In this document: in pieces, positions 4,185 to 23,353 of the stretch | How positions within the stretch are numbered: position 1 is the first letter of the stretch | How the letters are laid out: each line of letters begins with the position of its first letter | IMG/VR virus record: IMGVR_UViG_3300009285_004661 | Coordinates: 1 to 23,353 of that record | DNA: 23,353 nucleotides | Strand: one strand, 5' to 3' | From: a virus | The notes under the pieces: model-generated | What the model saw: only the letters and a program-made list of their open reading frames with translations | What the model was told of the DNA's origin: nothing | Database searches by the model: none | Made by a program: the position numbers and the translations under genes

Positions 4185-4303
4185 TCTCCTGGTGGTGGCT
4201 GATCGTGGCCTGGGCCGCAGGCATCGGAACAATGGTCGCCGTGGCGTGGCTGTTGAGTCTGGCCGTAGAAAACACGCCCAAACAGCGGTTTAAGTTACAT
4301 TGA
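4181..4303 (+). CDS. 40-aa single-TM peptide
   Basis: The ORF encodes 40 aa and its ATG overlaps the stop of the preceding membrane gene (ATGA), with AAGGGGGG upstream. The sequence opens with three consecutive Trp and has one TM helix at about residues 5-28. A short polar basic tail (NTPKQRFKLH) follows. Tight coupling to the upstream TM gene and the downstream lipoprotein gene suggests a membrane cluster. I recognise no family. Confidence 0.5.
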   Translation: MISWWWLIVAWAAGIGTMVAVAWLLSLAVENTPKQRFKLH

Positions 4304-4314
4304 GGAGTTGCCCA

Positions 4315-4770
4315 ATGATCCCATTCCTGTTCATTCTTCTTGCCTGGGCGCCGATCTTGTTCCTGGCCGGGTGCGATCGCCAGTTCACGGAGCGGGAAGC
4401 CCGGGCGATGCACCCGCAGAAGGACGAGGCGCGGTTCCGGTCGGAGATTCAACACACCAGGGATGTGCCAAGTTGCAGTGTTTCAATTTGGTATCCCGTT
4501 TGGTATCCCATGAAGACAGACAGCATAGTTCTTGCGGACCCGGTTTTCCTGCGGGAGTCTAAGTACCCCACGGGAATGGCGACCGCGTATCCCATTCCTG
4601 GGGATAGCATGAGGATGCGCATTGTCCCGGATAGTGCTTTCGTTCCGAGCCCGAAAGACTTCGACGTTGTCCTTGTTCCGGCCTGGTGGGTCCGCCGGGT
4701 GGACGGGGCGCTGCGGCAGATGGGCGTTGGCATGGACGAGCCGCCGACGAACCCAAAGGAGAAGCCATGA
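4315..4770 (+). CDS. Predicted phage lipoprotein
   Basis: Encodes 151 aa from ATG 4315, with GAGGAG at 4302-4307. The first 19 residues form a hydrophobic leader ending in the classic lipobox LAGC with C20 as the acylated Cys. The leader lacks the usual Lys/Arg n-region, which slightly weakens the call. The mature part has a Trp/Tyr-Pro-rich middle segment (SIWYPVWYP) and a Pro-rich acidic/basic end. It would sit in the envelope, facing the periplasm or surface. Phage lipoproteins usually serve as superinfection-exclusion factors or outer-membrane spanins; at 151 aa and without a partner i-spanin, exclusion or surface modification seems at least as likely. The exact role is unknown. Confidence 0.65.
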   Translation: MIPFLFILLAWAPILFLAGCDRQFTEREARAMHPQKDEARFRSEIQHTRDVPSCSVSIWYPVWYPMKTDSIVLADPVFLRESKYPTGMATAYPIPGDSMRMRIVPDSAFVPSPKDFDVVLVPAWWVRRVDGALRQMGVGMDEPPTNPKEKP

Positions 4771-5848: not shown

Positions 5849-6045
5849 ACATAGCCAGGGAAATCGTCTATGGTCGGGAACTCGAAACGCCGCTTGTGCC
5901 GTGCGAGAGGCCACTTGGCTATGTTGGGGAAAGCAGGGCCTTTGTGATGGTTCCGTCGGGGCCGTCCACAATGGAACTTGAGATGGAAGTTCTCCGCGTA
6001 GTCAAAATACTTCAGTCAAAAAGGATTGGTGAGCCGACCCCATAA
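5830..6045 (+). CDS. Hypothetical small protein
   Basis: Encodes 71 aa from ATG 5830, with AGGAG at 5815-5819. It appears soluble, with no TM segment. The C-terminal ~20 residues (MELEMEVLRVVKILQSKR) should form an amphipathic helix. The start region shares a 16-bp identity with the start of the next gene. I recognise no family. Confidence 0.5.
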   Translation: MAVQLVDIAREIVYGRELETPLVPCERPLGYVGESRAFVMVPSGPSTMELEMEVLRVVKILQSKRIGEPTP

Positions 6046-6058
6046 GGGAGAGAAGCCC

Positions 6059-6631
6059 ATGGCCGCTCGGTCTGTAGAAGATCGCAGAGTGAAGACAAAA
6101 ACCTCCACACCCAAAGAGATGGAGTGCGCGAGCAGGTTTCTGCAACTCCCACAAAACGCAATGGTCAACAATGCCCACTACATGCGGACATTGAGGCGTG
6201 CCTTGCGCGAGGGGTTGTTGATTATCCCGAAGGCTGGAGCGCTTCTTCTCGCCCTCCTCCTGGCCGCCTGCGGCCTTCTCCGGCCCGGCCCGGTCGTCCA
6301 CTACGTCGCGCAGCGCGACTCCTCCGATTGCGGCCCGGCCTGCCTGACGATGCTGGGATACGACGGCTACGGGCGGGACTTCTGGATGTCGGCCCCGGAC
6401 GTGCTGGGTCGGGCCTGTGGGGTCAGGGAGATAAAGCCGGGGATCGAGTGGACCCAGGAGAACCCGCACATGTTGGTGTTGGAGTGGCCGAACGGTCGGC
6501 AGCATTGGGTCGTGGCGTGGAGAGACTCGATATACGATCCGGCAAACGGCATCCTGCATGAGCGAGATTTGTCGGGAGAATCGGTGAAGCGCGAGTTCGT
6601 CGTGCCGTTTGCGAAGGGAGCCTTGAGGTGA
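6059..6631 (+). CDS. C39-like cysteine peptidase with lipoprotein signal
   Basis: Encodes up to 190 aa from ATG 6059 (AAGGGAG at 6044-6050). Residues 84-96 read AQRDSSDCGPACL, the active-site signature of peptidase family C39: Q85 (oxyanion hole) and C91 (nucleophile). H149 (RQHW) and D160 (IYDPANG) complete the expected triad. C39 domains usually cleave double-glycine leaders in ABC exporters, but stand-alone secreted C39-like peptidases exist. Directly before the domain is a signal-like segment: basic RTLRRALREG, a Leu/Ala helix, and the lipobox LAAC with C71. That signal is unusually far from ATG 6059; M42 (ATG 6182) would give a normal signal length but has no ribosome site. The mature enzyme should therefore be an envelope-anchored peptidase. 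Substrate unknown. Confidence 0.68.
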   Translation: MAARSVEDRRVKTKTSTPKEMECASRFLQLPQNAMVNNAHYMRTLRRALREGLLIIPKAGALLLALLLAACGLLRPGPVVHYVAQRDSSDCGPACLTMLGYDGYGRDFWMSAPDVLGRACGVREIKPGIEWTQENPHMLVLEWPNGRQHWVVAWRDSIYDPANGILHERDLSGESVKREFVVPFAKGALR

Positions 6632-6819: not shown

Positions 6820-6847
6820 AATGACAAAAGACGAAAGGAGCCAAGCA

Positions 6848-8212
6848 GTGAAAGACCTTTTTCCCGGAGAGGACCTGTTTGTCCTTGCCTGTCTGTGGGT
6901 CCTGGCCTGCGGCCTGGCCTGGGGCGCCTCCGGCCTCGGCCTCGGCCTGGACTTCTTCTACGACGAGGTCTGGTCCCTGACCAACTACGTGTTCGTCTCG
7001 CCCTGGGCCACGGTCAGCCAGCTTCCGGTCCCGAACAACCACATCTTCTGGAACCTGCTGGTTAACTTCTGGACGAAGCTCTTTGGCCTGGACCTGGCCA
7101 CGGTCCTCCGGCATCCCTGGACCGTCCGGATCCTGCCGGCGGCCTTCTCGGTCGGGGTCTTGATCTACACCTATCGTTTGGGCCGGTGGATGGCGGGGCG
7201 AGAGACGGGCCTGTTGGCCGTGGCCGTGCTGGCCTCCAGCCTGCCGTTCTGGAACTTCGCCACGGCGATGAGGGGCTACGCGGCCAACATGTTCTTCGTG
7301 TCGGCGGGGATCTGCTATGCCGCTGCTCTCCCAAGGTGGTTCGGATACGAAAAGCCGTCCCAAGCATGGGCACGTCCTGTGGTTTGTGCTTCTCTTGCCA
7401 CATGGACCCTGCCCACATCCCCATTGGCCCTCCTGGTGGCCCCGGTGACACCTCTCTCTGTTGGGGTGCTGCTTGGGTTTCTGTTTTACATGCCAGTATG
7501 GCCGGGACTCTGGGCCATTTCTTCAGGCGGGGGCGGTCCTGCCGAATGGCCCTGGACCGTCCTTGCGGCTTTCTCGTCGAACCGCTGGGTGATCGCCCTG
7601 GCCATTCCTGGTCTGATCTTGTTCTGGAAGAACAAGGCTTGGGGCACGCGCAAAAACATCACTCTTCTATCTTTCATCGTCCTGGCCTCGGTCGTCGTAG
7701 GCAAGGCCCTCGGCTGGCCCGACCGGACGTTGGTCTGCCTCCTGCCGATCTTCTCTGTCCTGGTTGCGACCGGCCTGTGGGCCGCGGTCGGATGGTCGAG
7801 GGTCGCGACCGGGGCCGTGGTGGCGCTGCTGTTCGTTGGGTTCTGGGTGGGGGCCATCCGCAGCCGGGACGGGCTGGAGGCCAACGCCTGGTCTTCTCCG
7901 TCCGAGAAGGTCTACACCCTGTCTGCGACCTACAACCAGTTTGGTTATCATCCACGCGAACTTCTGGAGCGGTTCGACGCCAGCCGGGACCGGGCCGTGC
8001 CGGTGGTGCTGGCCGAGTGCGACCGGGTGGCCCTACCTGCCTATCTGTGGCTTCAGAGGATTGAGTGGCTTGGATTGTTGATTGGAGATGGTTCTATGGG
8101 GACCATGGCGAACACCTATATGATCGGGACCGGCCTGCCGGAAGGTGGGCGGGCCGTGGACGACCAGGGCTTTCACAAGATTTCGTTCTTTGGGAGAAAG
8201 GAGCCGCGATGA
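6848..8212 (+). CDS. GT-C membrane glycosyltransferase (PMT/ArnT-like)
   Basis: Encodes 454 aa from GTG 6848, preferred because AAAGGAG sits at 6834-6840; ATG 6821 would add nine residues but lacks a site. The protein has roughly ten or more hydrophobic helices. The first loop holds the acidic pair D39-E40 (FFYDEVWSL), followed by NNHIFW with H65, then VRILPAAFSV, GRWMAGRETGLLA and the R-G-Y of MRGYAANMFF (R142). This order matches the PMT_2/GT39/ArnT-type GT-C fold, in which the loop acid activates sugar transfer from a polyprenyl-phosphate donor. A soluble periplasmic-type segment ends the protein. Phage GT-C enzymes such as Gtr proteins modify host O-antigen and block reinfection. No gtrA or gtrB partner is visible, so the host would have to supply the donor. 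The fold is confident; the substrate is not. Confidence 0.75.
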   Translation: MKDLFPGEDLFVLACLWVLACGLAWGASGLGLGLDFFYDEVWSLTNYVFVSPWATVSQLPVPNNHIFWNLLVNFWTKLFGLDLATVLRHPWTVRILPAAFSVGVLIYTYRLGRWMAGRETGLLAVAVLASSLPFWNFATAMRGYAANMFFVSAGICYAAALPRWFGYEKPSQAWARPVVCASLATWTLPTSPLALLVAPVTPLSVGVLLGFLFYMPVWPGLWAISSGGGGPAEWPWTVLAAFSSNRWVIALAIPGLILFWKNKAWGTRKNITLLSFIVLASVVVGKALGWPDRTLVCLLPIFSVLVATGLWAAVGWSRVATGAVVALLFVGFWVGAIRSRDGLEANAWSSPSEKVYTLSATYNQFGYHPRELLERFDASRDRAVPVVLAECDRVALPAYLWLQRIEWLGLLIGDGSMGTMANTYMIGTGLPEGGRAVDDQGFHKISFFGRKEPR

Positions 8213-11115: not shown

Positions 11116-11150
11116 AGCTCACTCATCTCTCTTGATGGGTGAGCTTTTTT
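11116..11150 (+). terminator. Rho-independent terminator
   Basis: A 12-bp stem (AGCTCACTCATC 11116-11127 with GATGGGTGAGCT 11134-11145; one G-U pair) has a 6-nt loop and runs straight into a T tract at 11145-11150. It follows the GIY-YIG gene by 29 nt and separates the middle gene block from packaging. Confidence 0.9.
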
Positions 11151-11151
11151 G

Positions 11152-11179
11152 TTGATTTTCAGACAGTTTCAACTACATT
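11152..11179 (+). promoter_or_regulatory. Possible sigma70-like promoter for terminase block
   Basis: TTGATT (11152-11157) and TACATT (11174-11179) are 16 nt apart, each matching four of six consensus bases. They lie immediately behind the terminator, where a new promoter is needed. The predicted start (~11186) would be only a couple of bases before ATG 11188. The match is weak and could be chance. Confidence 0.3.
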
Positions 11180-11187
11180 GTTTGCAC

Positions 11188-12726
11188 ATGAAGGCCTCGC
11201 CAATCACTCGCGCCATCCTGATAACGGAGCATCGGGAGGAACAGAAAGCCTACCTGGGTGCATATCGCCCGGTGAACGCCAAGGCTAAAGAGTTCCATTT
11301 TTCTACGGCACGCTGTAAGTGTCTGTTCTGCGCGAATCAGGGCGGCAAGACGCACTCAGGAGGAGCTGATGTAATCTCAGAAATGAACGGCACCCATCCA
11401 CTTCAGCGGATGGGCAAAAGACCCCCGCCACCCCTGCAATGGAGAGTCTGCGGGGTTGACTTCCCGAACGGAATTATGAAGTGGCTTCTGCCGAAGTTCC
11501 GTGAGCTGGTTGATCCCAAATACCTCAAGGGTGGAAGCTGGAGCGACGCGTATAGCGAGCGATACCGGGTGCTGACCTGGAAAGATGGCGGGTTTGTTGA
11601 GTTCATGTCCTACGACCAAGACCTGGACAAGTATGGCGGGACACAGCGAGACGGCGTGTGGTACGACGAGGAGCCGCCGAAGGCGATCCGGATGGAAAAC
11701 CGGATTCGCCTGATGAAGCGGCACGGGATCGAGCTTTTCACCATGACGCCGGTCAATGGATGCACCTGGATTTACGACGACATCTATGAGCCTTGGGAGC
11801 TTGGACGCCTGGCCGAGAGCACCGCCTGCTGGAATTGGAGCCTGTATGAAAACCCGTTCATAGACAAGGCCGAAGTTGACAGGATTGTCGAGAGTTGCGC
11901 AGACGAGAACGATGTTCAGATCAGGGTTTACGGTAAATTCGTCCACCGGACCGGCCTAGTCTACAAGAACTGGCGTCGGCAGCACCCCTGGACCTACAAC
12001 CGATTCGACATCCCGGAGGAGTGGACCCGGTACGTAGCGATTGACGCGCACGCAAGGAAGAATCATGCGATCCTGCTGTGCGCGGTTTCTCCGTCTGGAG
12101 AACGCTGGTACTACGACGAGATATACAAAGGCGCGGATGTTGATGACAACTGCGACGAGCTCAAATTCAAGCTCGACGGCGTTCCCCCGGAGTGGATCCG
12201 GATTGACAACGCGGCCAAGGGATACGACTACAAAGAGGGCGTCAGCGTCTACGACTACTACTGCGAGGCCCTCGAAGAGCGCGGCCTTGGCTCCCCGGAA
12301 CTGGCCCTGAAAGACCCGGCGGCCCGGCTGATGGCCGTCCGAAAGGGATTCAAGTGGGATCCGAAGCTTGTTCCAGAGCGCAAGATTCTATACGACCCGA
12401 CCTGCGACCTGGCCCAGCCGACCGGTGGGCCGCACATCCACATTTGCGAGCAGGACTGCCCGAAGCTTCTGTGGCAGCTTGCGCGCTACATCTACCCGGC
12501 CCACGCAAACCGGAAGGATGACGAGAAGAAGGACGCCCCCGAAACCCCACGCAAGAAGGACGACGACCTGCCCGATGACCTGGGATACATCGAGGTCGAA
12601 CAGCCGGAGTTCGTAGCCGGGGGCGGAGGGCACAAGAAGGACAGGCGAGACAGTGATGACGACTTCGAAGACGACGAGGACCTGGAACTGGTCGGGGAAT
12701 ACGAACAGGGCTGGTTGAACGCCTGA
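11188..12726 (+). CDS. terL: Terminase large subunit
   Basis: Encodes 512 aa from ATG 11188. TerL is the ATP-driven motor and nuclease that cuts and pumps DNA through the portal. The ATPase has Walker A ANQGGKT (A49-T55) and Walker B VWYDEE (D160, E161). The RuvC-like nuclease has YVAIDAHARKNHA (D286), RIDNAAKG (D340) and the late KKDDDLPDDLGY (D463/D464). The C-terminal ~50 residues are a very acidic extension. The start is uncertain: the frame opens with a TTG inside the terminator T tract, and ATG 11188 has no Shine-Dalgarno. It is nevertheless the last Met before the ATPase domain, so it is preferred. No small terminase is recognised upstream. Confidence 0.92.
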   Translation: MKASPITRAILITEHREEQKAYLGAYRPVNAKAKEFHFSTARCKCLFCANQGGKTHSGGADVISEMNGTHPLQRMGKRPPPPLQWRVCGVDFPNGIMKWLLPKFRELVDPKYLKGGSWSDAYSERYRVLTWKDGGFVEFMSYDQDLDKYGGTQRDGVWYDEEPPKAIRMENRIRLMKRHGIELFTMTPVNGCTWIYDDIYEPWELGRLAESTACWNWSLYENPFIDKAEVDRIVESCADENDVQIRVYGKFVHRTGLVYKNWRRQHPWTYNRFDIPEEWTRYVAIDAHARKNHAILLCAVSPSGERWYYDEIYKGADVDDNCDELKFKLDGVPPEWIRIDNAAKGYDYKEGVSVYDYYCEALEERGLGSPELALKDPAARLMAVRKGFKWDPKLVPERKILYDPTCDLAQPTGGPHIHICEQDCPKLLWQLARYIYPAHANRKDDEKKDAPETPRKKDDDLPDDLGYIEVEQPEFVAGGGGHKKDRRDSDDDFEDDEDLELVGEYEQGWLNA

Positions 12727-12734
12727 AGGATTTT

Positions 12735-14822
12735 ATGCCGATGCCAATCACAGCCGAAAAGCTGCAAGCCCTACTGGAGCGGAGGGTTTTTGAAGGCGAA
12801 GAGGAAGCCGCCTCCAGGATTAAGCGCGCCCATCAGGTCAACCAGGACTTCATTCGATTTCTATCCTACCGAAACGACTGGCTCGACGATCGACAGACCG
12901 CGATAGACTTCTACGAATCCCGCCAGTGGCCGAACCCCTCCACCAAGAAAATCCAGGTTACGGAAAACAGAATCATGCCCGCCATCAACCACGTGATGAG
13001 CATTGTGTCGCGGGCGAAATTCACAGTTGTGATCGAGGGCGTGGGCCCGGAAGATGCGGTCAAGGGTAAGATCATGAACCGGATCTTCGAGGACGCCGAC
13101 CGGCAGGACTCCACCGAGTTCAAGGTGTTCGAGTGTATCAGGGAGTCCAGGAAGGTTGGCCTGGGGGTTGGGAAGGAGGTGTGGGACTACTCTAAGAACT
13201 TCCCCTTCGGAGAGCCAAGGTTCGAGGTTGTGCCGTCGGACGAGATTTTTATTCAGCCGGGGGCCAGGGGGATGCAGTACGAGGACGCCGACAGGATCAT
13301 CCACGCGGTTCGCTACACCGTCGAGAAGCTTCGGGCCAAGTATCCTGATTTCAAGGACGAGATTCAGTCTGACGCACAGTGGATCAGCGAGGGGGCCGGC
13401 TCAAGGACCTATGTCTCGACCGCCACCACCGACAAAACCTACCGGCTCACGCACCTTGGTGGATCCCCGTTCTCTCCCGAGGGCGAGGAAGATGTCGCCT
13501 ATCTCAAGGAGGAATGGTACAAAAAGTATGAGCGCGAGTTGAAGTACGTGGCCCTGCGGGACATCCGGATGGTTTCGATCCCAATCTTCGAGGACGACCA
13601 GACCGGAGAAACCGGCCTGGACGGTCAGCCCCGGGTCGTTCGGTTCCGGCCCGGCGATGTCTTGGACGAGAAGGACGTCTTTGAATCCGGCCTGAACCTG
13701 GTGCCGGGCACCGACTACGAAGAAATTCCAATCGTGGTTGCGAAAATGTGGGTTGCCAGGGTGATAAACGACGTCACGGTTGAGGACCACCCAAGCCCGT
13801 TCGGGCATCAAGAGTTCCCGTTTATATTCTTCAAGGCCATCACGCTCGACAAGTACACCTATCCTGCCGGTGACATCATTTTCCTGGTTGACCTTCAGGT
13901 TATCCGCAACAAGATACGCTCCGTGGGCATGGACAACATGATCCGAAACAACAACGCCCCCCTGTGGAGCGACGGCCCGGTCAGTAAGCCCACCAAGGAT
14001 ATGTATAAGAAATACGGTGCTTACGCCGGGATGATCCTGGAGACCCGCAGAGGAGGGAAGCTGACGCGCTTGCCCCCGGGCGAGATCAACCCGGAAGTCT
14101 ACATCTCGATGCTCCGGGGGATCGACGCCGCCTTTGACGAACTCGCCGGCGTCACGTTCCAGGCCCCACAGACCCGGTCCGGAGAGCAGGAGCGCGAGAA
14201 CCGCCTTACCAACGAGATGTTCCACCAGCCCAAGAACAGCCCGATCCAGATGGCCCTTCTCTGGCTCGGCAGGATGCGGATGGCGAATGTTCAAAAGTTC
14301 ATGAAGGGCGAACGGATGGTGCGGATCGACGAACGTCTCTACAAGGCCCTGGAGGGAACCCCGCAGAAGGCTTTCCTGGGCCGCGATTCAATGGACCAGC
14401 CGTTCTACACCGTCAACAAGCAGGGCGAGACCCCGGACGGCCAGACGATCAACCTGAACGACCCGGCCGTTGGCCGGTTCGACCTGAAGGTGATGTTGGC
14501 CGCCGACTATGCCGAGACCCGCCGGAGCCGGGCCGAGGTTGCCCTGGGCCTGCGCAAGGGCGGGGACATGACCCGCAAGAGGATGCTGGAAGACCTTGGG
14601 TACGAAGACGCCGAGGCGATAGATGCCGAACTGAACGAGCAAAACAGCCTGTTGCAGATGGGCAAGCAAGTCGCGGAGGACCCGGTCCTGATGGCCGCGG
14701 TCCAAAACCCGCAGATTCTACAGCAACTGAAGATGTTGGTAGAAAGCCAGGCCGGGGCCGCACCGGCCGGCCCACCGGCTCCGACCGGCCCGGAGACTCA
14801 GCCGCCCATGCCCGCACAGTAA
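12735..14822 (+). CDS. P22-like portal protein
   Basis: Encodes 695 aa. The portal is the dodecameric ring at one capsid vertex, the docking site for terminase and later the tail. Length, position directly after TerL and sequence features (RNDWLDDRQTAIDFYESRQWP near the N-terminus, NRIMPAINHVMSIVSRAKF, a clip/stem region with RGGKLTRLPPGEINPEVY, and the ERENRLTNEMFHQPKNSP helix) fit the P22/podovirus portal group. The C-terminus is a Gln/Pro/Ala-rich tail similar in style to portal barrels. Two near ATGs (12735 and 12741) follow GAAGGA at 12725-12730; the second has the better spacing. Confidence 0.85.
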   Translation: MPMPITAEKLQALLERRVFEGEEEAASRIKRAHQVNQDFIRFLSYRNDWLDDRQTAIDFYESRQWPNPSTKKIQVTENRIMPAINHVMSIVSRAKFTVVIEGVGPEDAVKGKIMNRIFEDADRQDSTEFKVFECIRESRKVGLGVGKEVWDYSKNFPFGEPRFEVVPSDEIFIQPGARGMQYEDADRIIHAVRYTVEKLRAKYPDFKDEIQSDAQWISEGAGSRTYVSTATTDKTYRLTHLGGSPFSPEGEEDVAYLKEEWYKKYERELKYVALRDIRMVSIPIFEDDQTGETGLDGQPRVVRFRPGDVLDEKDVFESGLNLVPGTDYEEIPIVVAKMWVARVINDVTVEDHPSPFGHQEFPFIFFKAITLDKYTYPAGDIIFLVDLQVIRNKIRSVGMDNMIRNNNAPLWSDGPVSKPTKDMYKKYGAYAGMILETRRGGKLTRLPPGEINPEVYISMLRGIDAAFDELAGVTFQAPQTRSGEQERENRLTNEMFHQPKNSPIQMALLWLGRMRMANVQKFMKGERMVRIDERLYKALEGTPQKAFLGRDSMDQPFYTVNKQGETPDGQTINLNDPAVGRFDLKVMLAADYAETRRSRAEVALGLRKGGDMTRKRMLEDLGYEDAEAIDAELNEQNSLLQMGKQVAEDPVLMAAVQNPQILQQLKMLVESQAGAAPAGPPAPTGPETQPPMPAQ

Positions 14823-14839: not shown

Positions 14840-15631
14840 ATGAAGCGATTTCTGATAGCCGCGGCGCTCCTGGCGGTTCTTGTTGCCGGAATCTCCTGGG
14901 CCGCACCTCCGGCCAGGCCGCTGGCCGGAAAGATTCACGCCGGTCCGCCGGCGGCCGCAGGAAAGACCTGGCATGTCTTCGCGCGCGACACTGTCCTGTA
15001 TAAGGACTGGCACATAGTCAATGGCTATGTGCTGAACCAGATGAGCGCAGCCGATAGTGTTGTGGCCTGGAGCACGAACGCCGCAGACTCAACCTACCTC
15101 CGAATCCTTGGGATTAAGTCCAACGACACCAGCCGGGCTGAGGCCCTGGTTCGGATCCGCGGAACGGATACCGTTCGCGTTCAGGGGCAGAAGTTCCAGT
15201 ACATTGAAAACCTTATTTCGGACACGTCCTCGGCGGGAGACGTCCGGGTAAAGGCGCTGACGTCTTCAAGCAGCCTGACGACTCAGATTCTGGCCGGGAC
15301 CCGACAAACGAATATTGCTCACCACTTCTTCGACAAGTTTGAAGGTGGAGTCATTGACGGCATTGTGGTTCAGGGCCACCCGGTTCCGGCAGACTCGACC
15401 ATTTACTATCAGGTGCGATTGTACTCGCTGCACCGCACGGCCATTGCGTCGCCGGAGGATGGATACTCTGTTTTGTGGGAAGGGGAAACCCGAGACGGGT
15501 TGCCCCCACAGACGATCCCGATCAACACCGAGTGCCCCCCACAGTCTTATGTGACGGTGGTTGCCAGGACGACCGGGACAAATTACACTGGCCGGATCTG
15601 GGTCATGTTGAGCGGACACGAGCGGAACTGA
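14840..15631 (+). CDS. Sec-exported protein in the virion operon (exported A)
   Basis: Encodes 263 aa from ATG 14840 (TGGAGGA just upstream). A textbook Sec signal peptide opens it: MKR, a hydrophobic core at residues 4-18, and a likely signal-peptidase I cut after SWA (21/22). The mature part starts with a Pro/Ala-rich stretch and is then Asp/Ser/Thr- and beta-strand-rich (ARDTVLYKDW, AADSTYLRI, IRGTDTVRV). It reads like a jelly-roll or beta-sandwich surface protein. It lies between portal and scaffold, a slot usually held by cytoplasmic structural genes, and is followed by a terminator. It could be a decoration protein, an exported superinfection factor or an adhesin-like moron. I recognise no family. 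Confidence 0.6.
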   Translation: MKRFLIAAALLAVLVAGISWAAPPARPLAGKIHAGPPAAAGKTWHVFARDTVLYKDWHIVNGYVLNQMSAADSVVAWSTNAADSTYLRILGIKSNDTSRAEALVRIRGTDTVRVQGQKFQYIENLISDTSSAGDVRVKALTSSSSLTTQILAGTRQTNIAHHFFDKFEGGVIDGIVVQGHPVPADSTIYYQVRLYSLHRTAIASPEDGYSVLWEGETRDGLPPQTIPINTECPPQSYVTVVARTTGTNYTGRIWVMLSGHERN

Positions 15632-15670
15632 TGTAGCTTCACCGAGACAACCTGAGAAAAGACGCAGCAT

Positions 15671-15740
15671 AGCCCGGTGTATGGGACCGGGCGGAGTGCC
15701 CATACCACTCCGCTCAGACCATACATCGGGCTTTTTCTTT
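15671..15740 (+). terminator. Nested-hairpin terminator
   Basis: An outer 14-bp stem (AGCCCGGTGTATGG 15671-15684 with CCATACATCGGGCT 15719-15732; one G-U pair) encloses a perfect 8-bp inner hairpin (GCGGAGTG 15691-15698 with CACTCCGC 15706-15713). TTTTTCTTT follows (15732-15740). It ends the TerL/portal/exported A transcript or lowers read-through into the capsid genes. Confidence 0.85.
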
Positions 15741-15911
15741 GTATCCAAGATGCCGCCAGCGGCCCACTGCCGGCCTCCGGCGGCCCGATGAAACAAACCC
15801 CGTAACGCCAACCGTCCGGCGCCACAAGGCGACCGGGTGCGCGGGCAATGCCCGCCAACTCCCGGCTGACCCCCAATGGCCAACCGACCGGCGCGGAGAA
15901 GGAGACTCAAG
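15741..15911 (+). other. Leader of scaffold/capsid operon
   Basis: This 171-nt stretch has no supportable gene. It contains GC-rich pairing potential, including the hairpin GCGGGC-AAT-GCCCGC (15841-15855), and ends with AGAAGGAGA in front of the scaffold start. No convincing promoter boxes are seen, but a promoter would be expected after the upstream terminator. A leader controlling capsid gene dosage is possible. Confidence 0.4.
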
Positions 15912-17018
15912 ATGGCAGACAGTCCGAAAAACAACGACACCCCGACGTTCTCGCCCGATCCCGTGGGCCGGGACAAGATTGTTGGGACAGACGAAGAGAT
16001 CGCTGAGATCGAGCGGCAGATGAACACTCCGCCCGGCCAGGAGCCAGGGCCTGCCCCGGCGCCCGCGCCAAAGGCGGCACCTGCCACTGCCCCCGCCGAG
16101 GATGCCGTCGATGTCGATGGCGAGATGGTTCCGCTTGGTGACTTGAAGAACCAATTCCGCAGGCGGAAGGCCAACGATCGGAGAGCACAGGAGATCGCGG
16201 ACGAGAGGCGGCAGTTCGAGGCCCAGCTTAAAGGGGTTGAAACTCGACTCTCGCAGCGGCTTGACGACCTTGGGGTTCGCATTCCAGAACCCCCACCCCC
16301 ACCGGAGCCGGAAATCGAAATCCCTGATCTTGGGGAGATGCCGGACTATACGACCGTGGACGGCGCGGAGCAGCTTGGCAGCTGGATGAAGGAGAGCTTC
16401 AAGAAGGTTGCCCTGGCGACCCAGAAGGCAACCATCGAGGCCCTCCGGAAAGAACCAGCCAAGCCCGCGAGCGCCCCCGGGCCGGAGCCGGCAGCGGCCT
16501 CGGCCGAGCCGGATCTTGATGTTGATCCGAGCCTTGAAACGGTCGTGGCCTACAACCGGCGCCTGAGTGGGAACTTCCTGGAAGTCAAGAACCTGACGGA
16601 CCTTGGGATATCCAGGGAGGAGGCCACAAGAGTTCTGGATGATGTCGGCAAGGGCCGGGTCGAAGTAGAGGCCACCGGAGAAACCGACGCAAGGTCTGGA
16701 TTGAAGCTCCTGACGCTCAACGATCTCAACCGGCTGGTGAAAGGCACGAACGGTCGGGCCGCACCAGCGACAGCGACTCCACCTTCCAGGGAGGGAAATC
16801 CTGTGTCCCAGGCAATCACCGACGCCAGGCGCGCCTCCGAGACGGCAAGTTCGGCAGGCGGCGCCCCACAAGCCCAAACTCAGCACCAGGCTACGCTGAA
16901 GCGGGTTTCAGACGACCCCAGCATTATCAAGGACCTCCCGGCCCAAGAGTGCCTTGACCTGCTTAGGCAGGGGTTTGATATGGGGTTGTTCGAGGGGAAA
17001 ATGGGGCACGGCCAGTAG
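15912..17018 (+). CDS. Capsid scaffold protein
   Basis: Encodes 368 aa from ATG 15912, with GAAGGAGA about 8 nt upstream; an in-frame ATG at 15876 lacks a site. Scaffolds guide procapsid assembly and leave before or during packaging. The protein is acidic overall, with a disordered Pro/Ala-rich segment at about residues 37-65 and a long heptad-like helix at ~73-125 (RRRKANDRRAQEIADERRQF onwards). More Pro-rich linkers and short helices follow. A small C-terminal helix (ECLDLLRQGFDMGLFEG) could bind the capsid protein. This composition and the place immediately before the capsid gene are typical of scaffolds; sequence similarity was not used. Confidence 0.75.
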   Translation: MADSPKNNDTPTFSPDPVGRDKIVGTDEEIAEIERQMNTPPGQEPGPAPAPAPKAAPATAPAEDAVDVDGEMVPLGDLKNQFRRRKANDRRAQEIADERRQFEAQLKGVETRLSQRLDDLGVRIPEPPPPPEPEIEIPDLGEMPDYTTVDGAEQLGSWMKESFKKVALATQKATIEALRKEPAKPASAPGPEPAAASAEPDLDVDPSLETVVAYNRRLSGNFLEVKNLTDLGISREEATRVLDDVGKGRVEVEATGETDARSGLKLLTLNDLNRLVKGTNGRAAPATATPPSREGNPVSQAITDARRASETASSAGGAPQAQTQHQATLKRVSDDPSIIKDLPAQECLDLLRQGFDMGLFEGKMGHGQ

Positions 17019-17035
17019 GCGGAACGAGAAGGGGT

Positions 17036-17057
17036 GTCACCTTTGAGAGAGGGTGAC
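17036..17057 (+). promoter_or_regulatory. Hairpin over the capsid ribosome site
   Basis: GTCACCTT (17036-17043) pairs with AGGGTGAC (17050-17057), eight pairs including one G-U, with loop TGAGAG. The best ribosome-binding purines before the capsid ATG 17063 (GAGAGAGGGTGA) lie in the loop and 3' arm. The stem could therefore mask initiation until opened, for example by ribosomes finishing the scaffold gene. The role is inferred. Confidence 0.5.
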
Positions 17058-17062
17058 TTGAA

Positions 17063-18178
17063 ATGGCTGCATTGATTGGCAATACCGCAGGGGCCGCTGT
17101 CAAGCTTTGGGACAGAGTGGCTCACCAGCAGACGTTTTCCAGGTTGGTCTTCCGACAGAACAACCTGATCGGCAAGGACATAGGGGGAGAAGGGAAGCTT
17201 GATGGCGACGTTCCCTATTTCCCCATTGTCGAGAAGGAAGAGTTCGGCAAGCGAAAGAAGGGCGACCGGGTCCGGATGCACCTGTTCCGGCAGCTTTCCG
17301 GAACCCCGATCTATGAGGCAGCGACCCGCGCCGGCAACGAGACCACGATGGTCATCGACACGCAGGACGTGGACGTCTCGGTCGCGTGGATCGGCAACAA
17401 GATCAACGACTACGCCGCGTCGGACATCAGGACGCAGTTCAACCTGGAGCAGAAGTGTCTGGAGCTTTTGGGCACCAGGATGGCCCGATGGCTGGACAAT
17501 GAGTTCTTCTATACCTACTACTACGGGTATAGCCAGAACAACATCGGGAACAGCATCTCCGGCTGTTCCGCGACCCGGCACACCAACTGGTTGTACGCCA
17601 GCGGTGCCAGCCCGGGGTGGACGGCGGCCAAAGAAGGCGGCATGGACTCCGACCACAAGATGTCCACTCGCGTCATCAACATGGGGAAGGTGTACCTGAC
17701 GGAACACCTGAACGCCCCCCCGATCATGTGGAAGGGGAAGGCGTGTTATCTCGCATTTGTCCACTCCTTCCAGAACAACGACCTGTTCGAGGATCCCACA
17801 TGGGTCGCTTCCGCGCAGCGGGCCGCGATGCCGGGGGACGACAACCCCCTGTGGACCGGGGCCGTGGGGATGTGGAACAACGTCTGGATTCATGTGGCCG
17901 ACCAGATCGACTCCGCGAACGGGACCTGGTCCTCAAGCGATGGGGTCGAGGGTGGGGAGAATGTCAGGCGTGCGATCTTTACCGGGGCGCACGCCCTGGC
18001 TTTCGGCATCGGCCAGGAAGCAAAGCGGACCGTCCTGAACGAGGACGACCACCAGAGTAACCTCGCCCGAGGCCTTGAGGTGATTTACGGAGTCAAGCGC
18101 CTCGACTGGACCGTGGGGAACCAGTCCAGTTGCATCGTTTCCACCAGAGCCGCCGCGCCCTACAACGTTCAGGGCTAA
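17063..18178 (+). CDS. Major capsid protein, N4 gp56 family
   Basis: Encodes 371 aa from ATG 17063. This HK97-fold protein forms the head shell. The signature region KKGDRVRMHLFRQLSG, then a variable loop and MVIDTQDVDVSV with a following helix (RTQFNLEQKCLELLGTRMAR), matches the N4-gp56-family major capsid pattern. A later segment (PPIMWKGKACYLAFVHSFQ) fits the A-domain strands. Length is near the family norm (~350-400). Its place after the scaffold supports the call. A hairpin overlaps its ribosome site. Confidence 0.88.
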   Translation: MAALIGNTAGAAVKLWDRVAHQQTFSRLVFRQNNLIGKDIGGEGKLDGDVPYFPIVEKEEFGKRKKGDRVRMHLFRQLSGTPIYEAATRAGNETTMVIDTQDVDVSVAWIGNKINDYAASDIRTQFNLEQKCLELLGTRMARWLDNEFFYTYYYGYSQNNIGNSISGCSATRHTNWLYASGASPGWTAAKEGGMDSDHKMSTRVINMGKVYLTEHLNAPPIMWKGKACYLAFVHSFQNNDLFEDPTWVASAQRAAMPGDDNPLWTGAVGMWNNVWIHVADQIDSANGTWSSSDGVEGGENVRRAIFTGAHALAFGIGQEAKRTVLNEDDHQSNLARGLEVIYGVKRLDWTVGNQSSCIVSTRAAAPYNVQG

Positions 18179-18238
18179 GAAGTAGCTAAAGGCCTTGAGT
18201 GTCAAGCGCATCTCACTTCTCGAAAGGATGTGAACGAG

Positions 18239-18856
18239 ATGAACAGAATCACGAAAATCCTGGGCGCAGTGCTGGTGCTGACCGCTCTTTTTGGGTTTGC
18301 ATGGCAGAGTGCTCAGGCCGGGATAGGTGAGACCAAGCCTATCAAGTATGGGGTCAGCGCAATCGACTCTGTCAGGTGGATCGCGGCAGCCAGCACGGAT
18401 TCCACCACCCACGCCGGCTACATTGCCAAGGGGACGAAATTTTTCAAGACCGTCTCCACCGGCGCGGACACATCCGAAATCATCGACGGCCGAAACGCCC
18501 ATCTGCGCTCCGTCATGTGGATCACGAACAACCATGGCGGGAGCGCCTCGACCGGCACCATCGACTGCGCCCTGTGGTTGCAGGGCAACGTTGGAATGAT
18601 GGGGACTCGGCTACAGAACGACTCCACATGGGTAAACCTCGTTGTTATCGACTCTTTCCAGACGGCCACGACTCCGGACAGGCTCAAAGTCCGGTATAAG
18701 ACCTTCTGGCAGGGTGCAGCCCGAGATACGGCGGCCAGTGTTTATCCGCTGCTGAGGTTTATCGCCAAAAGCTGGGGGACCAGCGTGGACACGACCCGAG
18801 GCGTGGTCGTGCCATACTTCGAGTATCCGCCCACCCGGGATGCGTTGAGCCGGTGA
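18239..18856 (+). CDS. Sec-exported protein in the virion operon (exported B)
   Basis: Encodes 205 aa from ATG 18239, with AAAGGA at 18223-18228. The first 27 residues form a Sec signal: Arg/Lys n-region (NRITK), a hydrophobic core, and AQA as the signal-peptidase I site (27/28). The mature chain is beta-rich and Asp/Ser/Thr-rich (AIDSVRWIAAASTDST, TGADTSEIIDG, VVIDSFQTATTPD). It resembles exported A in style but not in clear sequence. Placed directly after the capsid gene, where decoration proteins often lie, it may be a head or surface decoration protein that uses an export step, or a moron. No family recognised. Confidence 0.6.
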   Translation: MNRITKILGAVLVLTALFGFAWQSAQAGIGETKPIKYGVSAIDSVRWIAAASTDSTTHAGYIAKGTKFFKTVSTGADTSEIIDGRNAHLRSVMWITNNHGGSASTGTIDCALWLQGNVGMMGTRLQNDSTWVNLVVIDSFQTATTPDRLKVRYKTFWQGAARDTAASVYPLLRFIAKSWGTSVDTTRGVVVPYFEYPPTRDALSR

Positions 18857-18863
18857 GGGGTGG

Positions 18864-18940
18864 GGTTTACACAAACCGATGCCAACAGGCGGCGGGAGGG
18901 GGTTTGAGGGCTCCTTTCGCCCTTTCGCCGCCCTGTTGGC
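18864..18940 (+). terminator. Nested hairpin without T tract (attenuator-like)
   Basis: After a small hairpin GGTTT/AAACC (18864-18877), a long stem pairs 18881-18894 (GCCAACAGGCGGCG) with 18926-18940 (one bulged G). Inside it AGGGC (18907-18911) pairs with GCCCT (18919-18923). No U tract follows; the next ribosome site begins 5 nt later. It may be an attenuator or an mRNA-stability or processing structure rather than a simple terminator. Confidence 0.5.
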
Positions 18941-18957
18941 TTCTGAAAGGAGCCAGG

Positions 18958-19569
18958 ATGTTAATCGAGTTCGTTGGAGACGGCGAAAGCAAGTTTGTGC
19001 TTTTCAGGGGGCAAGACTACAGGTTCGTTCCGAACCCGACCTATGAGGGTGCCAGGGTGCTGGACGTGGTTGACCGGGATGCTCAAATCCACGTCCTGAA
19101 CATCACGGACCTCACGGGGAATGTCCGTCGGTTCCGCAAGTACCCAATGGACGCCCTCCGGGACCCGGACTTCCTCCGGGCCATCGACACCAACCCAGCT
19201 GCGGCCTGGCACCGGCTGGCCCAGATCGACGCTGGGGAGGTGGAGTTGGACCTGGAGGCCCTGAAGTGGCAGTTTGCGCACTCCGATCTTCAGGCCCTGC
19301 GGCTCTACGCGGCCCAGCAGGGGATCGCGATAGATCAGAACTATCCTCATCATCGGGTCGTTGAGGTCTTGCTGGACAAGTTCACCAAGCTCTCGAAGGT
19401 CCCGGTCGGACCGCCGGATTCGCCGGCGGAAAGCGACGAAGGGCTGGACTTGACGACGAAGACGAAGGCGAAAAGGCCAAGGGGCAGACCGAAGAAGAAG
19501 GCCAAGCACGCCAAAACCCATGCGACCGCTGGCCTGGCCGGGTTGGGCACTGAAAAGACTGAGGGCTGA
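18958..19569 (+). CDS. Virion-region protein with C-terminal AT-hook
   Basis: Encodes 203 aa from ATG 18958 (GAAAGGAG upstream). Residues ~1-75 are beta-rich (MLIEFVGDGESKFVLFRGQD); the middle is helical (residues ~100-150). The tail is strongly basic and carries the AT-hook core RGRP at 175-178 within KRPRGRPKKK. AT-hooks bind the minor groove of AT-rich DNA. Between capsid and adaptor genes it may be a head-completion or DNA-end-binding protein. The AT-hook is clear; the overall function is not. Confidence 0.6.
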   Translation: MLIEFVGDGESKFVLFRGQDYRFVPNPTYEGARVLDVVDRDAQIHVLNITDLTGNVRRFRKYPMDALRDPDFLRAIDTNPAAAWHRLAQIDAGEVELDLEALKWQFAHSDLQALRLYAAQQGIAIDQNYPHHRVVEVLLDKFTKLSKVPVGPPDSPAESDEGLDLTTKTKAKRPRGRPKKKAKHAKTHATAGLAGLGTEKTEG

Positions 19570-20258
19570 TGGCCGCGATCTACTCAACCGTAGAGGATCT
19601 GCTTGATGCGGCGGTGGAGGTTGTTCTGCCTCTCAAGGGTGTATCCGGCAACCGGGCCTTGATGCTGGTGTGGCTCAACTTGGGCCAGCTTGAGATTCAG
19701 AGGCTCCGGGCCGGGCGTGGCTACGAGACACTGCGGACCGTTCGTAGCCTGACGATGACGACCACCAGGGCCTACGACCTGACGGCAGGAGATTGGGCCG
19801 TGGATCGGGAGACCTTCAGGGATTCTGAGGGCACCAAGATCATCTACCGGACCGAAGAAGAGATCCGGAGGAACCTGGACGGCGGATGGGATGACACCGG
19901 CACCGTCAGCCGGTTCACGCAGAAGGCCGGTCAGATATGGCTTTGGAAGATCCCGACCGCGGCGGCGATCACGGACCAGTCCCCGATCACCTACGATGCG
20001 TTCGCCCGGTTCGACGGGTTCACGGCAGAGGCCGACACCCTGGGTCAGTACCGAGAGTTGGACCGGATCGTTCTGCTTCAGTATCTGATCTACCGGGGCA
20101 TGGTCGAGGACGACGACCCATCGGCGGACCGGGCGCTGAAGATATTCGAGGCGATGGTGGACGCGATGGACACGGAAGAGGGTTTCGGGGACCTGATTCA
20201 GATCGGCCTGGGACCCTACTTCGACGAGACGGTCGCGGCTGAAACCGATGAGTGGTGA
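19569..20258 (+). CDS. Head-tail adaptor-like protein
   Basis: Encodes 229 aa; its ATG overlaps the previous stop by one base (TGATG). The N-terminal helices (STVEDLLDAAVEVVLPL, then ALMLVWLNLGQLEIQRLR) and the later bundle (ELDRIVLLQYLIYRGMVED, then RALKIFEAMVDAMD) flank a beta insertion. This resembles gp6/gp4-type connector adaptors that extend the portal ring and bind the tail. The position after the capsid genes fits. There is no firm motif, so it is an adaptor by layout and helical pattern. Confidence 0.6.
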   Translation: MAAIYSTVEDLLDAAVEVVLPLKGVSGNRALMLVWLNLGQLEIQRLRAGRGYETLRTVRSLTMTTTRAYDLTAGDWAVDRETFRDSEGTKIIYRTEEEIRRNLDGGWDDTGTVSRFTQKAGQIWLWKIPTAAAITDQSPITYDAFARFDGFTAEADTLGQYRELDRIVLLQYLIYRGMVEDDDPSADRALKIFEAMVDAMDTEEGFGDLIQIGLGPYFDETVAAETDEW

Positions 20259-20737
20259 TGAGCACGGTCTTTCCCCTCGAAACCTATGGAACAGTGTTCC
20301 CGACCGGCGTGTCAACCCGCCCACACAACGTCATCGAGCTGTTCAACCGCAGCGGGAGCGCGATCAATTGTGGGGCTCCGGCTTGCCTGTTGGTCACGGG
20401 GGCCGTGGACTTCGGCATCGACGCCACGATCCCGGCGGCCAATAACCTGACTCTGTTCAGGGGGGTGTGGCTTCCTAACTTGGACGGCACACTCACGATT
20501 CCGAACCATCAGTTCGGGCTGGTGCAGACAAAGGGTCTCGTGTACAACCCGGCGGACGGGGTTGGCCTGGCAAGGGTCCTGGGGCACGCCAGCATCACGG
20601 CGGCGGGGATCGTCCTTCAGTTTACCGCCGGCAACGACTACTTCGAATTGGGCGACTTGATAGCAGAAGAGCAGATCATCTCCGGGGAAGCCTGGACGAC
20701 AGCGAGCACGGCCTTAAAGAAGGTGTTTTTGAGGTAA
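20258..20737 (+). CDS. Unknown virion-region protein
   Basis: Encodes 159 aa from ATG 20258, overlapping the adaptor stop by one base; in-frame GTGs at 20252 and 20255 are less likely. The sequence is beta-rich, Gly/Ala-rich and hydrophobic (VFPTGVSTRPHNVIELFNRSG, then CGAPACLLVTGAVDFGIDATIP), with two Cys. No signal or TM is convincing. Between adaptor and tail protein it may be a decoration or tail-completion component. No family recognised. Confidence 0.55.
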   Translation: MSTVFPLETYGTVFPTGVSTRPHNVIELFNRSGSAINCGAPACLLVTGAVDFGIDATIPAANNLTLFRGVWLPNLDGTLTIPNHQFGLVQTKGLVYNPADGVGLARVLGHASITAAGIVLQFTAGNDYFELGDLIAEEQIISGEAWTTASTALKKVFLR

Positions 20738-20746
20738 TGACGAGCA

Positions 20747-22324
20747 ATGCCATCCAAACAAGTGCCAGTCCTCTACCACTCCTGGGCCGGGGGCCGGAAC
20801 GACTCCAAGAGCCTTCTGGCCTTGAACCGGAACGAGCTGGCGGAGATCAGCAACTTTTACGTGGCGCAGGACGGGCACCTGAAGAAGCGGGCCGGGTTCT
20901 CGAAGGTCTACGCCACGACCCCGATCGGGTCGACGGTCGCGCACGGCATGATCCAAACCCGGATCGGCACGACCCGGTATCTGATCACGACCGCGGGCGC
21001 GGAGATCTACAAGAACGACGACGGAGCGATCACCGGGACGGCATCGCTGACGGCGGGAGCGGACAAGCCGGTCGTGATGGTGACGTTCAACGACCTGCTG
21101 ATCGGCACGCAGTCCGATACGACCGTGGGGATCAACGCCCCGTTTGCGTGGTCAGGGACCGGGAACGCGGCGGCACTGACGACATCTCCGCCTTCGCTGG
21201 CCGTTACGGTCGCGGCGTTCAAGAACCGGCTGGTCTTCGGCAATGTGACGTTTGGCGGCACGGCCTACCCCAATGGCATCGTTTTCTCGAAGGTGAACAC
21301 AGCAACAACATATCCCACCAACCAGATCATCTTGGCGTATCCCGGGACCGGAAAGTACATCGCGTCCTTTTTGAACTTCGCTGCGGACGTGTCGGAGTCA
21401 GACAAGGAGGTTCTGCTGGTTTTCCAGGACAGCGGACTTTGTATGTTGAGGCACCAGGTCTTAACCGTGGGGGATCTGACCACGGCATTCGTGTTGGACG
21501 CCATCCCGGACGCGGGAGGGTGCCCGGCCCCGTTGGGGCCGATCGCGGCGGATGGGTTTGCCTACTGGCCGTCGTACCGAGGCTTCTATTACATGGGGAC
21601 GGACCTGAAGCCGGTCTATATCGGCAGGCCGCTGGAGACGTTCTGGAGCACGGTTCCGAAGAACAGGATCCCGCACATCAAGTCCGTGCATTTGCAGGAC
21701 CTGGGACATATATGGTTCTCGGTGTCGGGGGCCGGATCGGTCGGCGGGACGCAGGCCACGAACAACAAGGTCTGTGTCTGGAGCACGGTCTTTCGCAGGT
21801 GGGTCGGGATATACTCGGGCATTCTCGCCAACGTGATGTGCGAGTTCATCGACTCGAATCTCAACCGATACGTCTACTCGTCGGACTACGCAAACTACCT
21901 CATCTACAAACAGAACACGGGCACCAGCGACGGCGTGAGCACGACCGGCATTCAGGCCAGCTTCAAGACCGGGTTCATGGACCTGGGCAACCCGAACATC
22001 CAGAAGTCCTTCCGGAAGTTCATTCTGGAGTTGGGAACCGACGCGCTCAAGCAGTATCAGGTCAATATCTCGCTCTACAACGTCACCGGCGCTCAGGCCC
22101 TTGCACTGGAAAGCGGGGAAGCGGGCGTGCTGCTCGACAGTTTCATGTTGGACTCGGATTCGTTGGCCGGGCCGGAGTACGGCCAGGTGTGGGCCAGGAT
22201 CGGCGGCAAGGCCAGGTATGCGCAGGTTGAGCTTGTGACCGCCGCCAACACTCAGGATTTGGACATCTATGGACTCGGGTTCTATGTGGTTCCGCGTAGG
22301 GCCACGGCGGGAGTGAAGCGATGA
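20747..22324 (+). CDS. Beta-propeller-like tail protein (P22 gp10-like)
   Basis: Encodes 525 aa from ATG 20747. The opening GGRNDSKSLLALNRNELAEI...NFYVAQDGHLKKRAGFSKVY is typical of phage tail-hub/DNA-stabilisation proteins related to P22 gp10 ('N...NEL...N.....DG.L..R.G'). The long middle is made of repeating beta hairpins (TTRYLITTAGAEIYKNDDG, KNRLVFGNVTFGG, GFYYMGTDLKPVYIG), which suggests a propeller. The C-terminal ~120 residues look like a beta-sandwich domain. The position between adaptor and fibre supports a tail hub/stabilisation role. A same-sized overlapping frame on this strand is a compositional shadow. Confidence 0.7.
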   Translation: MPSKQVPVLYHSWAGGRNDSKSLLALNRNELAEISNFYVAQDGHLKKRAGFSKVYATTPIGSTVAHGMIQTRIGTTRYLITTAGAEIYKNDDGAITGTASLTAGADKPVVMVTFNDLLIGTQSDTTVGINAPFAWSGTGNAAALTTSPPSLAVTVAAFKNRLVFGNVTFGGTAYPNGIVFSKVNTATTYPTNQIILAYPGTGKYIASFLNFAADVSESDKEVLLVFQDSGLCMLRHQVLTVGDLTTAFVLDAIPDAGGCPAPLGPIAADGFAYWPSYRGFYYMGTDLKPVYIGRPLETFWSTVPKNRIPHIKSVHLQDLGHIWFSVSGAGSVGGTQATNNKVCVWSTVFRRWVGIYSGILANVMCEFIDSNLNRYVYSSDYANYLIYKQNTGTSDGVSTTGIQASFKTGFMDLGNPNIQKSFRKFILELGTDALKQYQVNISLYNVTGAQALALESGEAGVLLDSFMLDSDSLAGPEYGQVWARIGGKARYAQVELVTAANTQDLDIYGLGFYVVPRRATAGVKR

Positions 22325-23353
22325 AACTCAAGAAAGCCGGAACGATACTGCTGGCGCTGCTGATGGTTGCGTGTGGGGCTGTGTGGGCCACCACCACGAT
22401 CACGGCCACAAAGACCTGGGGTGCGGAGAAGCTGTATGCGTCGGAACTGAACGCCCGGTTCGTGAACGCCGAGTCCTACTTGAACACCTATATCGCGTCG
22501 TGGACGGATGTGACGGCCTCGATCTCCGAACTCAACCAACTTGACGGCAACCTGTTCACGACCGATGCGACCTTCCGGGCCTCCGTCACGATCGACACCT
22601 TGAAGATCCTGACGGTCAACGGCCGGGCCAAGATCGACTCCCTCCAGGCCGATACCCTCCAGTCTCCGGCAACCGGCACGATCCTTGGGGCATCCTTCTA
22701 CTTGCTCCCCCTGACCGACGGCACCGGCTACCTGGGCACTCCCGGCACGAACCTCCGGTCGGCGGCCCTGGACACGCTGCACCTGAATACGAAGATGGTT
22801 GGGTCCGTGCTGGACTCCGGCAACATCGTGGCCGGCGGGATCGGGACTTCCGACCTTGCCCCTGATGCTGTGGATTCTACGATCATTGAGGACGCCACCG
22901 TCAGCCGGGCCGATCTCCGGGCGGACGTCGTGGACTCGGTCGTGATCCGGGCCGCGTCCGTGGCCGGGTCGGACCTGGCCGCGTCCCTGAGTGGGAGGAA
23001 GTACTTCACCCAGGGCCTGAAGACCTCCGGTATGGAGGCGGACACGATCTATGGCCAGGCAAGCAGGGCAAACCTGGTTTTTTCCGTGAACGGCGCAGAC
23101 ACCACCCTCATCCTTAATCATGCAAGTGCCGCAGACTCCTACTTGCAGCTTGGGAGCCAGCAGTTGAACTCGAACTACCTTGTCATTCAGAGCAAGGGAA
23201 CAAGCACTTCCACTGTTCAGGGCCTTGTTATATACGAAGGCCTTGGAACTGGTCCGGCCAGCCAGAGGGCGTGGTTCGTGGGTTATGACGCAGCCAACAA
23301 CCGCTTTCGTATCAACTCGGGCGACATAGACGGCGCCCCTTCGCCCACGGCGG
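22321..23353 (+). CDS. Signal-peptide-bearing tail fibre/spike (3'-truncated)
   Basis: ATG 22321 overlaps the tail-protein stop (ATGA); the frame is open to the window end (344 codons seen). It begins with a signal sequence MKLKKAGTILLALLMVACGA, cut either as Sec (after VWA, 23/24) or as a lipoprotein at C18 (VAC). The region at about residues 160-222 has repeats of the type GGIGTSDLAPDAVDSTI, then VSRADLRADVVDSVVI, the pattern of a parallel or trimeric beta-helix found in fibres. The last visible part (GLGTGPASQRAWFVGYDAANN) looks like the start of a receptor-binding or chaperone-type beta domain. Position and repeats indicate a host-binding fibre; the signal peptide is unexpected for one. 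Confidence 0.7.
   Translation, partial: MKLKKAGTILLALLMVACGAVWATTTITATKTWGAEKLYASELNARFVNAESYLNTYIASWTDVTASISELNQLDGNLFTTDATFRASVTIDTLKILTVNGRAKIDSLQADTLQSPATGTILGASFYLLPLTDGTGYLGTPGTNLRSAALDTLHLNTKMVGSVLDSGNIVAGGIGTSDLAPDAVDSTIIEDATVSRADLRADVVDSVVIRAASVAGSDLAASLSGRKYFTQGLKTSGMEADTIYGQASRANLVFSVNGADTTLILNHASAADSYLQLGSQQLNSNYLVIQSKGTSTSTVQGLVIYEGLGTGPASQRAWFVGYDAANNRFRINSGDIDGAPSPTA

Follow-up and report, generated by a model that had tools for sequence, protein, structure and literature searches.

Tailed phages are taught as assembling wholly in the cytoplasm, although exported proteins from late phage operons are known, such as the spanin Rz1, lambda Lom, and Cor/Llp. The closest described layout for the locus considered here is the late module of P22-like podoviruses, and such a module lies in the right half of the window, i.e., the whole IMG/VR fragment IMGVR_UViG_3300009285_004661 of 23,353 bases. 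Its genes run in the order TerL, portal, A, scaffold-like, capsid, B, three small connector-position genes, nozzle, and a fibre-like gene, and three of them (A, B, and the fibre-like gene, hereafter the fibre) begin with predicted Sec-type signal peptides. A P22-type portal, a coat protein of the Phage_capsid_3 group, and a gp10-like nozzle were found in order, and the window shares with the P22-like module the portal family PF16510, the capsid family PF13252, the nozzle family phrog_3287, and the gene order. Unlike that module, it has extra genes for predicted exported proteins in the portal-scaffold slot, in the post-capsid slot, and after the nozzle.

Lambda Lom, Cor, T5 Llp, and Rz1 are likewise Sec-exported products of late genes. 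In contrast to them, the window carries three separate core-slot genes, the fibre among them, that are conserved between distant relatives. Among known phages, capsid similarity led to three genomes, none of which has a leader of comparable strength on a structural late gene, and the literature searched yielded no description of tailed-phage virion proteins with leaders, which is not proof of absence. The earlier note regarded signal peptides in such positions as unexpected. Put so broadly, the statement holds only in part, since exported late-operon proteins are known, but three conserved genes in virion slots, including a fibre, are indeed unusual.

Predicted leaders of A, B, and the fibre

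The genes and their leaders are listed below in window coordinates; L091 and G001 belong to a distant relative described in the next section.

14840-15631, + strand: gene A, 263 amino acids, predicted exported protein between portal and scaffold; open reading frame (ORF) with a GGAGGA ribosome site and a homologue in L091
14840-14902, + strand: signal peptide of A, 21 amino acids, predicted cut between SWA and A; score 49.0; the homologue's leader ends AMAQ
18239-18856, + strand: gene B, 205 amino acids, directly 3′ of the major capsid gene; ORF with an AAAGGA ribosome site and a 199-amino-acid homologue in the same slot (E 3e-16)
18239-18319, + strand: signal peptide of B, 27 amino acids, predicted cut between AQA and G; score 45.6; homologue MRKFLGSTFVLTVILAIAALSMA followed by QQ
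22321-23353, + strand: fibre-like gene, truncated by the contig end; ORF whose ATG overlaps the nozzle stop (ATGA), with GGGAG upstream and a complete 414-amino-acid homologue in G001
22321-22389, + strand: signal peptide of the fibre, 23 amino acids, predicted cut between VWA and T (alternative lipobox C18); score 44.4; homologue MMKRILSILLLLALFPFPAGA followed by TT

All three N-termini (MKRFLIAAALLAVLVAGISWA before APP in A, MNRITKILGAVLVLTALFGFAWQSAQA before GIG in B, and MKLKKAGTILLALLMVACGAVWA before TTT in the fibre) combine a short basic n-region, a strong uncharged hydrophobic core, and an AxA-type site, as is characteristic of Sec substrates of signal peptidase I (SPI). The leaders were called by a purpose-written rule-based predictor, which was checked on 117 annotated genes from three regions of E. 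coli K-12 and found 24 of the 24 exported proteins; at a score of at least 30, its false positives were confined to membrane proteins, of which nearly all had a membrane segment at the N-terminus, and soluble proteins never reached this threshold. For the fibre, the best cut of the script was at residue 29, while the cut at residue 23 was read by eye and agrees with the homologue.

A small fraction of shuffled sequences acquire a hydrophobic N-terminus, and membrane proteins often have one, so that chance or wrongly chosen starts might in principle have produced leaders that are not real features. This explanation is nearly excluded by the shuffles themselves, by the background rate, by the ribosome sites, and by conservation in the relative. 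With the first 45 residues shuffled, 9 of 2000 trials reached a score of 40 for A, and 6 of 2000 did so for B and likewise for the fibre. In related phage loci, 1557 non-redundant ORFs on the forward strand were scored, of which 12 reach 40 with a ribosome site, and this rate is, if anything, generous, because several of the 12 are leader-bearing late genes themselves. Only A, B, and the fibre score among the 11 late genes of the window; the probability of at least three in 11 is 7e-5 with the genes treated as independent. The earlier claim of Sec-type leaders on these three proteins is thus upheld by the predictor scores, the usable ribosome sites, and the conservation considered next.

Conservation in a distant relative

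A TerL profile derived from the window together with two distant relatives led to the IMG/VR records G001 (54.5 kb, parent of L090, L168, and L171-L174) and G002 (L091), a near-identical fragment, and the two were counted as one independent relative. Direct IMG/VR scans that started from the capsid, the portal, A, or B gave no relatives, and TBLASTN searches of the phage collection with the portal, fibre, and A were also without a match. Identity between the window and G001/G002 is 46% for TerL, 42% for the portal, 42% for the capsid, 57% for the nozzle, 59% for g20252, and 33% for the scaffold.

In this relative, the three genes occupy the same slots, A between portal and scaffold (386 amino acids in L091), B directly 3′ of the capsid gene, and the fibre directly 3′ of the nozzle gene, and all three homologues carry a leader: MLKWNRKVDVAFGVLVALMIAVVAMAQ in A, MRKFLGSTFVLTVILAIAALSMAQ in B, and MMKRILSILLLLALFPFPAGA in the fibre. 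The mature parts are 37%, 28%, and 39% identical, respectively. The AxA-type cut position is maintained (window/relative: SWA/AMA in A, AQA/SMA in B, VWA/AGA in the fibre), so that, judged by sequence comparison, the leaders are conserved in kind and not in letters. The earlier note had proposed homologues lacking the leaders as grounds for abandoning its reading; the only homologues found, those of G001/G002, have them in three of three cases. Such conservation supports functional export of A, B, and the fibre, and their export is likely.

Could the three genes be morons, i.e., host-derived inserts in the late region that encode exported proteins without a virion role, as lambda lom does? Exported morons in tail operons are known, and A, alone among the three genes, is followed by a strong terminator:

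15671-15732, + strand: strong intrinsic terminator in the gap that separates A from the scaffold gene; -45.7 kcal/mol and z = -7.15, with a T-rich stretch behind it

However, no promoter-like site was found directly upstream of A, B, or the fibre, and the G+C of the three genes is similar to that of the surrounding sequence. In addition, the sporadic presence expected of morons was not observed, all three genes being retained in the one known relative, where they are placed as stably as the portal and scaffold, unlike sporadic cargo. Since the slots are the same despite the distance between the TerL proteins, and since the mature parts have diverged about as much as the neighbouring scaffold and portal, A, B, and the fibre do not look like recent inserts, and a moron origin is quite improbable. 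The terminator also bears on the assignment of the three genes to one late operon in the earlier note. That they belong to one late module stands, but a single operon is weakened, because A and the scaffold-capsid-B genes may form separate transcription units; a simple scan of L091 found no comparable terminator after A.

Possible fates of the exported proteins

The fibre might instead be a lipoprotein cut by signal peptidase II at C18 (motif LMVAC), an option left standing in the earlier note. It was rejected here, as the homologue has no cysteine, and because C18 is not conserved, Sec/SPI processing is preferred.

A more general alternative is that the hydrophobic N-termini serve as uncleaved inner-membrane anchors and tether the proteins so that they face the periplasm. 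The rule-based predictor cannot tell anchors from leaders, and the cores exceed those of E. coli leaders in length and hydrophobicity (median KD12 of 2.93 versus 2.30). The median KD19 of 2.0 lies between the E. coli values for leaders (1.68) and for anchors (2.45). The most anchor-like protein is A, which at 2.42 falls, as does its homologue at 2.58, in the range of N-anchored E. coli proteins, while B and the fibre (1.93-2.22) are nearer to leaders. On the other hand, the n-regions are short, with 2-9 residues ahead of the core; all six proteins from the window and the relative have an AxA-type site behind the core, and no second membrane segment was found in the mature parts. Leader cleavage appears likely; anchoring of all three proteins is distinctly improbable, and an uncleaved anchor is a possibility mainly for A.

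If exported and cleaved, where would these proteins act? Conserved shafts with exchanged tips are the usual signature of adhesion fibres. Compared with the G001 homologue in steps of 25 residues, the fibre is about 32-60% identical over residues 1-200, matches at 20 of 25 positions in residues 201-225, and falls to about 20% beyond, which looks like the usual pattern of a host-adhesion fibre with a swapped tip. The features of a tail fibre (a conserved N-terminal part, an exchangeable C-terminal tip, and a place beside tail genes) are all present, while no convincing fibre homologue was found in the phage collection. For A and B, no family was matched in PHROGs or Pfam, and AlphaFold models of their mature parts, built on two-sequence alignments, were poor (pLDDT 37 and 40). 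An Asp/Ser/Thr-rich beta style of the mature parts, noticed earlier, is plausible.

One answer is that, once outside, they remain with the infected or lysogenised cell. The fibre and its partners would be displayed at its surface or released there, and would cover the phage receptor, keep out other phages, or attach to adjacent cells. The leaders are real and conserved, a free fibre with a receptor-binding tip would bind the receptor, and T5 Llp and N15/phi80 Cor are receptor-masking lipoproteins. Investment in the envelope is also seen in the lipoprotein-like genes of the window (at 4300 and inside 6026) and in an OmpA-domain lipoprotein of G001. However, the slots of A and B are typical of virion genes and are conserved, and the lipobox that could tether the fibre is absent from the homologue. 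A role on the cell surface is thus unlikely, though it deserves serious consideration.

The other answer, tentatively proposed here at somewhat less than even confidence, is that exported A, B, and fibre join the particle at lysis as decoration and tail fibres. As conserved members of the late module, the three proteins would be exported through the host Sec system, their strongly hydrophobic cores probably directing them to co-translational targeting by the signal recognition particle (SRP). Leader peptidase would then free the beta-rich mature proteins outside the inner membrane, where they would most likely wait in the periplasm of an outer-membrane host. At lysis, they would come into contact with finished capsids, A and B attaching as decoration and the fibre as a tail fibre, whose exchangeable C-terminal tips would bind the next host. 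We infer Sec export, cleavage, a location outside the inner membrane, and joining of the virion at lysis. The leaders themselves, their conservation in the distant relative, the stable slots in the late module, and the swap of the fibre tip are well supported by the comparison of sequences.

Joining at lysis is slightly favoured over a stay on the infected cell because the slots and the architecture of the fibre match those of virion parts and because, for decoration proteins and tailspikes, addition to finished particles is ordinary chemistry. Lambda gpD, T4 Soc/Hoc, Dec of phage L, and P22 gp9 illustrate by analogy that such addition is feasible in vitro; unlike A, B, and the fibre, they lack leaders and function inside the cytoplasm, and no sequence relation to the window proteins was found. 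Several points weigh against the proposal. The sequence offers no reason for assembling parts after lysis. Mature cysteines are few (none in the fibre, one in A, and one in B, with none in the B homologue) and form no conserved pairs, so periplasmic disulphide folding is not a reason for export. Finally, no leader-less homologues of A, B, or the fibre were found, the only homologues detected being those of G001/G002, and the virion role consequently rests on gene position and fibre architecture. The earlier note offered two readings, proteins displayed on infected cells or added as decoration once lysis has occurred, and taken as a whole its interpretation is partly supported.

Leaders in other uncultured phages and neighbouring features

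Strong leaders on late genes also occur in the TerL- and capsid-related sets, namely in L088, L115 (three genes), L126 (two), L140, L029-L031 (fibre-like), and L177. The post-capsid beta-helix protein L115:11189-12193 begins with a 24-residue leader followed by KMTNYPNGITSFG, whereas its relatives in L089, L126, L140, and MW202647, which likewise occupy the slot after the capsid gene, begin M(P)LTNFPNGITSFG or similar, with stops just upstream and no leader. Because L115 has a leader and these four relatives start without it, a leader can be added to an ordinary post-capsid protein. B sits in the same slot but is not detectably homologous to the beta-helix proteins, most of which lack a leader. 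The leader-bearing protein of L140 has a C-terminal half that recurs in tail-spike and minor tail proteins from phage isolates, and that of L126 matches a PHROG tail-fibre family, while TBLASTN of the L126 fibre against the phage collection gave no match. A Shewanella phage match to the L029 fibre was not used, as the gene annotated at that place is on the other strand.

These observations suggest that, in some tailed phages, not all of the particle or adhesion machinery is kept in the cytoplasm and a part of it is exported. More specifically, a group of uncultured tailed phages might complete its particles outside the cytoplasm, with Sec-exported, periplasm-matured decoration and fibres added only at lysis, a step gained or lost via a leader on ordinary virion proteins; this wider idea is possible but doubtful. 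The conserved, probably exported late proteins and the natural pair with and without a leader make two options testable, i.e., that parts are added after export or that fibre-like surface proteins control superinfection, and either answer would alter the reading of "virion genes" from position alone in uncultured phages.

L177 is a bacterial-genome contig in which phage-like genes come after chromosomal-looking ones; its TerL-related region (L177:9577-21300, JAHDNF010000025.1) has two leader-bearing genes between TerL and portal and is a possible route to a host. In the podovirus MW202512, a small leader-bearing protein annotated "hnhc" (HNH-like) is encoded upstream of the capsid gene (L002:10390-10668).

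The remaining members of the late module identified in the window are as follows.

12735-14822, + strand: portal protein, P22 type; PF16510 E 1e-36, phrog_156
15876-17018, + strand: scaffold-like protein; phrog_3927 E 0.0028, homologue in L091
17063-18178, + strand: major capsid protein; PF13252 E 1e-26, phrog_334
20747-22324, + strand: tail nozzle/stabilisation protein (gp10-like); phrog_3287 E 1e-14, 57% identical in G001

In G001, the fibre gene is followed by an exported-looking protein (7406-7900) with a hydrophobic start that ends AKA and lacks a basic n-region, and then by a zinc-ribbon gene, a SleB-type wall-hydrolase-like protein, holin-like genes, and a lipoprotein, the lysis genes being identified by inspection. 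Further on lie the OmpA-domain lipoprotein, which suggests a host with an outer membrane, and a giant protein of about 4000 amino acids (L172:14662 to L173:7661), which carries SLT transglycosylase and ddrB-ParB domains and is probably ejected and DarB-like. G001 also has two paralogue-like lipoprotein genes, L172:3612-4088 and L172:9201-9665 (VHNAYLDIL.. / AHNAYLTAL..), one just 5′ of the nozzle gene and one in the lysis region.

The early region of the window holds a lipoprotein-like gene at 4300-4770 (MRSCPMIPFLFILLAWAPILFLAGC...) and, within 6026-6631, an internal lipoprotein-like start (MRTLRRALREGLLIIPKAGALLLALLLAAC...) ahead of a weak Peptidase_C39-like domain. The ORF at 6821-8212 encodes a polytopic membrane protein of 463 amino acids with no Pfam match, by its look a putative membrane glycosyltransferase. 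A terminator-like hairpin at 11116-11188 ends in a T-run that holds the TTG start (11149) of the listed terL ORF, and the true start of terL is probably the ATG at 11188 (MKASPITRAI...).

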